Source: Bradyrhizobium genosp. SA-3 (GTDB lineage Bacteria; Pseudomonadota; Alphaproteobacteria; Rhizobiales; Xanthobacteraceae). From it: a stretch of DNA of 64,000 nt. Below the pieces are notes generated by a model. The model was not told the DNA's origin and made no database searches. It was given only the letters and a program-made list of their open reading frames with translations. The stretch spans positions 1 through 64,000 of the forward strand of contig NZ_PSRT01000007.1 in assembly GCF_004212635.1 (NCBI RefSeq). The letters are read 5' to 3'. Positions 61,643-63,588 of this stretch are shown here, in pieces (the stretch's first letter is position 1; the number at the start of each line of letters is the position of its first letter). Made by a program: the position numbers and the translations under genes.

Positions 61643-62383
61643 TCACGCTCGTGAGAGCGCAGGCACCTCCTCGGGCATGATCGCCTGGAGGCCGCCGAAA
61701 CGGCGTTCGCGACCATGGAAAGCGGCGAGCGCCTCGGCGAGATCGCCGGCATCGAATTCCGGCCACATCCGCTCGGTGAAGTGCAACTCGGCATAAGCAC
61801 CTTCCCAGAGCAGGAAGTCCGACAGCCGCTTCTCGCCCGAGGTGCGGATGATGAGATCGACGTCGCGCAGGCCGGCCTCGCCGGTGACGAGCTGCGAGAA
61901 CGCTTCGCGGGTGAGGCTGGTCAGCGCCGCTGCCTTCGCCGCGGCATTGAGGATGGCGTCGCGCGCGGAATAATCGACCGCGATGCGCAAATGCAGCGTG
62001 CTGCCTTGAGCGGTCGCCTCTTCGGCACGCGCGATCGCGCTGGCGATGCCGTCGGGCAGGCGGTCGCGGCGGCCGATCACGGTGAGGCGCACGCCGTTCT
62101 TGACCAGGCTCTGCACTTCATTGGAAAGGTAGAATCGCAGCAGCGTCATCAGCGCGGCGACCTCGGCCTTGGGCCTGCGCCAATTGTCGGTGGAGAAGGC
62201 ATAGAGCGTCAGCGTGCCGATGCCCTGCTTGGGCGCGGCCTCGACGATGCGTCGGATCGTCTCGACGCCGGCCTCGTGGCCGCGCAAACGCGACAGGCCG
62301 CGCCGCGTCGCCCATCTGCCGTTGCCGTCCATGATGATGCCGACGTGAAGCTTGTCGTCGCAGGACACAGGGTTACTTTGCAT
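61643..62383 (-). CDS. uppS: Isoprenyl transferase (undecaprenyl diphosphate synthase family)
   Basis: Condenses isopentenyl diphosphate units into a cis-polyprenyl chain used as glycan carrier. The 246 residues show IIMDGNGRWA (catalytic Asp), RGHEAGVETIRRIVE, LTLYAFSTDNWRRP, LRIAVDYSARDAIL and DLIIRTSGEKRLSDFLLWEGAYAEL. ATG 62383 with CGGAG upstream; a TTG at 62401 is possible. It begins 27 bp after the winged-helix gene. The start codon sits at the centre of a palindrome shared with the operon's own promoter. Its genome context is unlike the usual lpxA-dxr cluster, so it may be a paralogue. Confidence 0.92.
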   Translation of the reverse strand: MQSNPVSCDDKLHVGIIMDGNGRWATRRGLSRLRGHEAGVETIRRIVEAAPKQGIGTLTLYAFSTDNWRRPKAEVAALMTLLRFYLSNEVQSLVKNGVRLTVIGRRDRLPDGIASAIARAEEATAQGSTLHLRIAVDYSARDAILNAAAKAAALTSLTREAFSQLVTGEAGLRDVDLIIRTSGEKRLSDFLLWEGAYAELHFTERMWPEFDAGDLAEALAAFHGRERRFGGLQAIMPEEVPALSRA

Positions 62384-62391
62384 TACAAAGT
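62375..62391. promoter_or_regulatory. Operator palindrome ACTTTG-N5-CAAAGT over the uppS start
   Basis: ACTTTG-CATTA-CAAAGT; the ATG of uppS (minus strand) is in the spacer. The same arms occur at 63443-63459. Likely binding site of the winged-helix protein whose gene ends 20 bp away. Confidence 0.6.
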
Positions 62392-62410
62392 CTCCGGTCA
62401 AAAAGGGGGT

Positions 62411-62785
62411 TTAGGTCGAAACGAAACCGAGGCGTCCGAGCGGCGGTGCCTCGCGGCCGGCGGCCTTGGCGGCATCGCGCACGAGACGTTCGAGCACGGC
62501 GAGATAGTCGAGGAAGCGGCGGCGGCCGGACTTGGTGAGGCGACAGGTCGTGTGCGGGCGGTTGCCCTCATAACCCTTGGTCACCTCGACGAGGCCGGCC
62601 TCCTGCAGCACGGCAAGATGCCGGCTGAGATTGCCATCGGTGAGGCCGCAGAGCTGCTTGAGGTCGGCGAATGCCAGCCCCTTGGGATGTGCCATCAACG
62701 AGGTCAGCAGGCCGAGCCTCGCCTTCTCGTGGATGACGCGATCAAGCCCTTCATAGGAGAAGGGCGCGCTGTCAGACTTCGACAT
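62411..62785 (-). CDS. Winged-helix transcriptional regulator (HTH_34/ArsR-like)
   Basis: A 124-residue regulator: DRVIHEKARLGLLTSLMAHP, then the winged helix LKQLCGLTDGNLSRHLAVLQEAGLVEV and CRLTKSGRRRFLDYLAVLERLV. This small family is usually paired with a membrane protein gene. It starts inside the membrane protein gene's end (14 bp overlap), so it is coupled to it. It likely binds the ACTTTG-N5-CAAAGT sites at 63443 and 62375. Confidence 0.88.
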   Translation of the reverse strand: MSKSDSAPFSYEGLDRVIHEKARLGLLTSLMAHPKGLAFADLKQLCGLTDGNLSRHLAVLQEAGLVEVTKGYEGNRPHTTCRLTKSGRRRFLDYLAVLERLVRDAAKAAGREAPPLGRLGFVST

Positions 62786-63389
62786 CGTGGTCTCCGGACG
62801 CAACATACAGAATGGCAGCCATCACCGACTGCCCGATCGCGAAGGGCAGACCCATGGTCCATGGCGACAGCGTGTGGGTTTGGCTGGCGTGCACCACCAC
62901 TGCAAAGCCTGAAACGAAATACCAGGCGCCGGCGAGCGCGACGGTGCGCGGCAGCGAGCGGACGGAAGCGAAAATGCCAAGCGACACCAGGATCTGCCAC
63001 AAGCCGGGCAACAGCCACAGCGTTTCCGCCGCAAATTTCCACATCACTACCGCAAGCAGCACGCCGGCGACGCCTGCGGGCAGAAAATGCTCGACCGCCT
63101 GATGGATCATGGCATCGGCGAGGCCGGAATGATGGCGGCGCGAGCGCGCGCGCATCTCGATCCCGATTATCAGGCCGGAGAGCACTGCGGCGATGAACCA
63201 GCCGAAGAAGAAGCTGAGCGGCTCGCCGGTGGGATCGCCGAGCAGCCAGAATTGCAGAATCGCGGTGATGAGCGCGACCGCGGCGGTCACGGCCATGGTC
63301 GCCGGGCCGTAGCCGCGGAACGCAGTGCCCGCCGCGATCTGGCTGCGGATCGCCACGATGTCGGCCAGTGCCTTGTCGAGATCGCGCAT
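62772..63389 (-). CDS. Membrane protein, partner of the winged-helix regulator
   Basis: A 205-residue protein: a short soluble N-terminus (MRDLDKALADIVAIRSQIAA) followed by about five hydrophobic segments (MAVTAAVALITAILQFWLLG, FFFGWFIAAVLSGLIIGIEM, WLLPGLWQILVSLGIFASV, TVALAGAWYFVSGFAVVVHA and GLPFAIGQSVMAAILYVA). The sequence between the first two holds EPLSFF. Function unknown; the protein may bind the regulator, as in other membrane-protein/regulator pairs. ATG 63389 is chosen because the frame before it runs through promoter sequence. A shared operator lies 54 bp upstream. Confidence 0.8.
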   Translation of the reverse strand: MRDLDKALADIVAIRSQIAAGTAFRGYGPATMAVTAAVALITAILQFWLLGDPTGEPLSFFFGWFIAAVLSGLIIGIEMRARSRRHHSGLADAMIHQAVEHFLPAGVAGVLLAVVMWKFAAETLWLLPGLWQILVSLGIFASVRSLPRTVALAGAWYFVSGFAVVVHASQTHTLSPWTMGLPFAIGQSVMAAILYVASGDHDVEV

Positions 63390-63442
63390 TGGCAACGCCA
63401 AAACCTCGTTCCGCCCATGCTTCCCCGGGACTGCTCCCGTAA

Positions 63443-63459
63443 CTTTGTATCGCAAAGTA
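63443..63459. promoter_or_regulatory. Operator palindrome ACTTTG-N5-CAAAGT upstream of the membrane protein/regulator operon
   Basis: ACTTTG-TATCG-CAAAGT, followed by a further half-site TGCAAAGTAA (63469-63478). Lies 54 bp before the start of the membrane protein gene and about 130 bp before the divergent secreted-protein gene, so it may govern both. Confidence 0.65.
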
Positions 63460-63588
63460 TATAGCACTGCAAAGTAATGGCAAGTGCCGATGTCGCGGCA
63501 GCTAGATCGGACTTGTGCGAACAACTGGCGGTTGCGCGACACCGCATCCCACAGATAAGATGGAGCGAAAAGCATTCCGGGGGCTGGT

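Follow-up and report, generated by a model that had tools for sequence, protein, structure and literature searches.

Why should the same 17-bp palindrome stand both before an operon and on the start codon of its last gene, and which protein would read it there? The question is raised by a minus-strand operon in the 64,000-nucleotide stretch of Bradyrhizobium genosp. SA-3 DNA that we analysed (the window). The operon encodes a membrane protein, an HTH_34 winged-helix protein (wHTH) and a cis-prenyltransferase paralogue, UppS2, and is flanked by the two palindromes, named O1 and O2. In the order of transcription, the features are:

63478-63483, minus strand: predicted -35 element TTGCCA, with a CTTGC core that is 90-99% conserved per base in 80 loci
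63470-63475, minus strand: half-site ACTTTG, the left arm of a second, degenerate operator (63459-63475) that abuts O1
63456-63461, minus strand: predicted -10 element TATACT, sharing its final three bases with the start of O1
63442-63458, minus strand: putative operator O1, ACTTTG-N5-CAAAGT, covering the presumed -10 and transcript start
62772-63389, minus strand: membrane protein of 205 aa, its gene overlapping the HTH_34 gene by 14 bp
62411-62785, minus strand: HTH_34 winged-helix regulator of 124 aa, with recognition helix TDGNLSRHL
62400-62404, minus strand: T tract upstream of the uppS2 Shine-Dalgarno sequence, T in 95-100% per base in 81 loci
62392-62395, minus strand: predicted Shine-Dalgarno sequence GGAG of uppS2, 86-100% conserved per base in 81 loci
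62375-62391, minus strand: putative operator O2, whose spacer contains the uppS2 ATG (62381-62383) and whose right arm is codons 2-3 (Gln-Ser)
61643-62383, minus strand: uppS2, cis-prenyltransferase paralogue of 246 aa, matching NF011412 (PRK14839)

The regulator scores 76.2 bits against PF13601, above the Pfam gathering cut-off of 27; its length is counted from the chosen ATG, and another in-frame ATG lies seven codons upstream. The first-pass annotation had placed a winged-helix gene between the palindromes, which is where 62411-62785 lies, and had called the last gene uppS. The gene does encode a cis-prenyltransferase, but it is a paralogue and not the housekeeping gene. UppS2 scores 428.4 bits against NF011412, above the NCBIfam cut-off of 334, and the genome holds one other cis-prenyltransferase gene, located elsewhere and scoring better against Pfam, with neighbours that we take, from names assigned by eye, to be pyrH, frr, cdsA and dxr. 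The uppS2 gene lies outside the operon of the other, housekeeping uppS. The IIMDGNGRW, YAFST-NW-RP and DLIIRTSGE-R blocks are common to UppS2 and the housekeeping enzyme (best PDB match 4q9m), whereas UppS2 reads DYSAR where 4q9m has the NYGGR block, a change that may alter substrate or product.

Both palindromes are exact copies of ACTTTG-N5-CAAAGT, with the spacer CATTA in O2 and TATCG in O1. At O2 the first-pass annotation had reported precisely this word, with the uppS ATG in the spacer; at O1 it had the right word at 63443-63459, and the true position is one base lower. The further half-site that it listed is present as CAAAGT at 63470-63475, directly upstream of O1 and in a 17-bp register. 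With up to two mismatches allowed, O1 and O2 are the only matches in the window, and 100 shuffles of its 64 kb gave a mean of 0.53 matches at this threshold, with at least two matches in 11 shuffles. They are also the only two exact copies in the 8,722,424-base genome. The copy number of the word alone is unremarkable against a reversed control word, which has one exact copy in the genome and, at up to one mismatch, 10 places versus 8 for the real word. What goes beyond chance is the presence of both exact copies in a single 1.1-kb operon, together with their conservation at that place. A chance palindrome is ruled out by this conservation and co-location, and not by the genome count, which matches that of the control word.

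Across Bradyrhizobium, the exact word follows the wHTH gene. It occurs in 108 of 146 genomes, comprising 105 of the 107 genomes with the wHTH gene (all except G064 and G069) versus 3 of the 39 without it (G023, G078 and G127; compared by a Fisher test), and uppS2 and the wHTH gene are present in the same 107 of the 146 genomes. The 39 genomes without the gene contain four exact words (0.10 each), versus 23 copies of the reversed control in 146 genomes (0.16 each); in this partial test a larger regulon in the genus is unsupported. Extra exact words in the eight genomes inspected lie outside the operon and have varied spacers, among the places listed. One genome (G011, contig 16) carries two copies of the wHTH gene and uppS2 with both sites, near 454 kb and 1005 kb, about 550 kb apart.

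Conservation within the genus was scored in 81 loci, the window's own and 80 named ones; the latter are the best 80 of 142 related loci, a set that leans to close relatives and is nearly all Bradyrhizobium, with a few rows titled otherwise. O1 is found in all 80 readable loci (66 without mismatch, 13 with a single mismatch and 1 with two; L108 is cut before the site), and O2 in all 81 (61, 19 and 1 in the same classes), with the uppS2 ATG in place in each of the 81. The arm bases of both sites are 85-100% conserved per base, and the two sites are 1030-1087 bp apart over 80 loci. All 25 orthologue loci (L021-L045, the window's own locus included) likewise have both sites with at most two mismatches. 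A record titled Frankia sp. RB7 (L099) has a wHTH gene 94% identical to that of the window, and its label looks wrong.

The sites are also kept beyond the genus. Fifteen loci from other genera of the family, chosen at 61-77% identity (places at about 47-51% were taken as the housekeeping enzyme), carry all three genes; in L191 the contig end truncates the gene for the membrane protein. An order-wide search with HTH_34 added further loci, which brings those outside Bradyrhizobium with uppS2 adjoining the wHTH gene to 39, in 12 families that include the window's own; four Bradyrhizobium rows were deliberately excluded from this count. O1 is present with at most two mismatches in 37 of the 38 readable loci (the contig of L191 starts too late), and O2 in 30 of 39, spread over 11 families, with the ATG at O2 positions 9-11 in 26 of these 30. 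At L190, where O2 has one mismatch, the likely start codon, read by eye, lies upstream and the site falls inside the gene. In the other nine loci (L183, L184, L186, L192, L268, L269, L285, L287 and L299) uppS2 is kept but O2 is either missing or three mismatches off, and therefore O2 is not indispensable. A search for the palindrome near orthologous gene pairs, which had been named earlier as a check on the operator claim, has thereby been run: both palindromes persist in Bradyrhizobium, and elsewhere 30 of 39 loci retain O2.

At the upstream site, the palindrome coincides with a predicted promoter. The -35 lies 16 bp before the -10, whose T-A-T is 97-100% conserved per base in 80 loci and is weaker outside the genus (T 26/38, A 16/38, T 34/38). 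The C-T-T-T-G of the half-site is 82-100% conserved per base in 80 loci, and only 18 of 38 loci outside the genus have CTTTG in register. At greater distance from O1, conservation of the flanks drops to about 26-60% per column. Within the spacers, two inner bases of O1 and two bases of O2 are free, and the remaining spacer bases lean to a consensus. The predicted arrangement of O1, -10 and -35 is the geometry of a repressor site.

At the downstream site, the palindrome is kept against the codon preferences of the gene that it overlaps. Codon 2 is CAA in 78 of 79 loci, versus 33 of the 300 other Gln codons of uppS2, and codon 3 is AGT in 68 of 79, versus 16 of the 952 other Ser codons; the loci in these counts are related, and the trials are not independent. 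Since the O2 arm retains rare codons, the DNA word itself is selected, and this test rules out that coding constraint by itself accounts for O2. Two loci were left out of it (L066 and L108), for which the script found no uppS2 frame above 150 aa; in L066 the gene may be broken in that strain. Outside the genus, T stands at position 12 in 10 of 37 O1 sites and in none of 30 O2 sites, again counted over related, non-independent loci; its absence from O2 is explained by the stop codon that a T there would create after the ATG. On these patterns, O2 behaves as an operator under an added coding constraint. The T tract at 62400-62404 is also found in many loci outside the genus; as a terminator it was rejected, since no preceding hairpin is visible by eye.

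We propose, with a probability of about 0.72, that the HTH_34 protein is an autorepressor at O1 and holds a lock on uppS2 at O2, with the membrane protein as the probable sensor. Sequence comparison supports the operator status of O1 and O2, the HTH_34 protein as their reader and the overlap of O1 with the promoter; dimer binding, the block to elongation, sequestration and the signal are the parts that we infer. By occupying O1, and with it the -10 and the transcription start, a dimer of the HTH_34 protein would repress the whole operon and hence its own gene. On O2 it would form a second lock on uppS2 alone, most likely by halting any RNA polymerase that escapes repression at O1, and a roadblock just after the stop codon of the repressor gene would spare the supply of repressor. 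An envelope or lipid-carrier signal, probably sensed by the membrane protein, would take the repressor off the DNA, so that O1 and O2 open together and more cis-prenyl lipid is made. The first-pass annotation had suggested that the palindromes are operators, that the regulator autoregulates and that it blocks uppS translation or transcription at its start. Comparative evidence supports the operator claim (sites kept in the genus and in other families), autoregulation (O1 over the presumed -10) and the block at the start (O2), and disfavours the translational form of that block, in which O2 would act in RNA.

O2 might instead be the operator of an internal uppS2 promoter, where a bound protein would block initiation and not elongation. 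The sequence TTGACC just upstream of O2 resembles a -35 element and is 75-100% conserved per base. Yet no -10-like sequence is seen by eye at the right distance, a matching -10 would fall in uppS2 after the ATG, and the conserved T tract and GGAG fit a ribosome-binding region equally well. Because no fitting -10 was seen, we prefer a roadblock to elongation and regard an internal promoter as unlikely.

The lac operators are bound together with looping of the intervening DNA, and the identical arms of O1 and O2, about 1.05 kb apart, would suit a similar arrangement. Against this, their spacing of 1030-1087 bp over 80 loci has no visible phase, although phase matters little at such a length, and small HTH_34 proteins are not known to form tetramers. 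A loop is an improbable explanation of the paired sites.

The inverted repeat of O2 could also act in RNA, as a hairpin with the AUG in or beside its loop that tunes translation. The 17-nt O2 RNA folds at -4.3 kcal/mol (z -4.45), and its 51-nt context in the window at -8 kcal/mol (z -2.07), but two other loci give weaker context z-scores, of -0.89 and -0.33. The same arms recur at O1, where the site overlaps the presumed -10 of the promoter. Moreover, the outer pair of the hairpin varies without compensation, with an A-C mismatch in 12 of 80 loci and no G-C pair, and at position 6, 9 of the 30 O2 sites from other genera have A facing C. We prefer the roadblock because of the overlap of O1 with the presumed -10 and the uncompensated outer pair, and an RNA hairpin has very little in its favour as the function of O2.

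The roadblock and the autorepression both presuppose that the HTH_34 protein reads the palindrome, and related HTH_34 modules offer a comparison. A second module in Bradyrhizobium consists of a hydrolase, a membrane protein and an HTH_34 protein, its copy in the window's own genome being 41% identical to the window's regulator. In six loci of this module (L194-L198 and L200), the promoter carries ACTCTG-N5-CAGAGT, exact in two and with one arm base off in four, and in four of the six the site lies directly over TATACT. Eight HTH_34 loci were checked in this way, and L204, L205 and L206 have no such palindrome upstream.

We then compared recognition helices with operators in 115 HTH_34 loci, leaving base 4 of the site free. 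Proteins with DGNLS have T at base 4 in 47 of 47 sites (found at 45 of the 54 loci), and those with DGNLG or EGNLG have C in 15 of 15 (found at 13 of the 26 loci), so that helix residue S pairs with base T and G with base C. The stretch searched holds no site in 9 of the 54 DGNLS loci and 13 of the 26 DGNLG/EGNLG loci, and for some of the latter the promoter probably lies beyond it. In the same stretch, sites were found at none of seven QGNLS loci, none of ten DSVLS/DSVMS loci, two of ten DGNLD loci (both off-consensus) and one of four DGNLE loci (with C), L264 being counted among the last although the script had filed its helix as DSVLH. Shuffled sequence gave 0 to 0.10 sites per locus, depending on the helix group. 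Two sites lie off the usual place, that of L213 (-367) and one of the two in L289 (-987). On a tree of 56 HTH_34 domains, poorly resolved and with thin support, the T/C label changes only two to three times, and the helix-base match therefore rests on few independent events; the tree omits L213, L252, L255 and L256, which have a site, and L260 and L261, which are off-consensus, and includes L050 for sites lying beyond the searched stretch. O2-like downstream sites occur only at loci of the TDGNLSRH type, except for one poor match inside a gene. A TDGNLSRH-type pair of HTH_34 and membrane-protein genes at L232 has O1, no uppS2 match and no O2-like site; its next gene encodes a large protein with N-terminal hydrophobic stretches.

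The operators of related HTH_34 modules and the helix-base match make the HTH_34 protein the likely binder, and together they are good evidence, short of conclusive, that it reads the palindrome. Binding by a regulator other than the local HTH_34 protein is scarcely credible, given that sites in the same frame precede HTH_34 operons with other gene content, that base 4 follows the HTH_34 helix and that 36 of the 39 Bradyrhizobium genomes without the wHTH gene also lack the exact word.

The membrane protein matches no Pfam or NCBIfam family above cut-off. By sequence profile it does not score in an SdpI family of Pfam; a scan to E 1 gives only NDUF_B12, at E 0.023 and below cut-off. A confident structural model from a 43-row alignment (mean pLDDT 89.8) has an N-terminal helix followed by six long helices. 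With this model, a Foldseek search of the PDB returned nothing at E 0.001 or below, and the best VIA-align 2 hit is a designed helical barrel (Z 9.8, rmsd 4.2, 143 aligned), which possibly reflects only a common arrangement; neither program gave a clear match to a known fold. By a rule-based count, 74 of 115 loci have a hydrophobic ORF of 150-260 aa immediately upstream of the HTH_34 gene; the rule misses some true cases, including the window's own L021, and calls some starts too far upstream. By analogy with a known repressor-membrane protein pair, the membrane protein may be the sensor.

We speculate further that the membrane protein senses polyprenyl carriers and frees an HTH_34 repressor that gates the second cis-prenyltransferase through a start-codon operator, as an order-wide switch for lipid-carrier homeostasis, and that the module and its one-residue operator code are reused for other targets across Alphaproteobacteria; this extension is tentative, and on balance we doubt it in full. 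If true, one 17-bp word would be operator, translation start and coding sequence, a short piece of DNA under regulatory, translational and coding constraint together. The reading would also propose a DNA code for the HTH_34 family, for which our searches found no characterised operator, link that code to a recurrent membrane partner without a known family, and point to a second synthase as a regulated source of the lipid carrier used for cell wall and surface sugars. In the literature searched, with subscription papers mostly outside the search, we did not find a start-codon operator on a second cis-prenyltransferase, this operon or an HTH_34 code.

An autorepressor with a downstream site is a known kind of control, and the locus can be set beside several known systems. 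By sequence, the only solved relative of the regulator is PH1061 (PDB 1ub9, E 3.5e-07), deposited as a hypothetical protein; the papers searched held nothing relevant on PH1061 or HTH_34. The ArsR-type metalloregulators have a related winged helix, and the regulator passes HTH_5 (27.8 bits, cut-off 22) but fails the ArsR/SmtB metalloregulator model NF033788 (34.2 bits, below the NCBIfam cut-off of 55).

The closest likeness in gene arrangement is to SdpR and SdpI of Bacillus subtilis. There, the autorepressor SdpR is cotranscribed with the polytopic membrane protein SdpI, which sequesters it on meeting the signal (PMC1626106). Here, too, a small winged-helix protein adjoins a polytopic membrane protein, with a putative operator at the shared promoter, and autorepression would follow the same pattern. 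Unlike SdpR/SdpI, the operon has a third gene, uppS2, under a second operator, and we noticed no toxin gene in it. SdpI-like sequestration of the HTH_34 repressor would be an analogy only.

For the downstream site, the likeness is to the controller protein C.Kpn2I, whose site in coding sequence is reported to stall RNA polymerase (PMC6237814). O2, too, is conserved, stands at coding sequence and lies downstream of the promoter, and stalling there would work in the same way. The C.Kpn2I site lies inside the regulator's own gene, whereas O2 spares the regulator gene and covers the start codon of the gene that follows.
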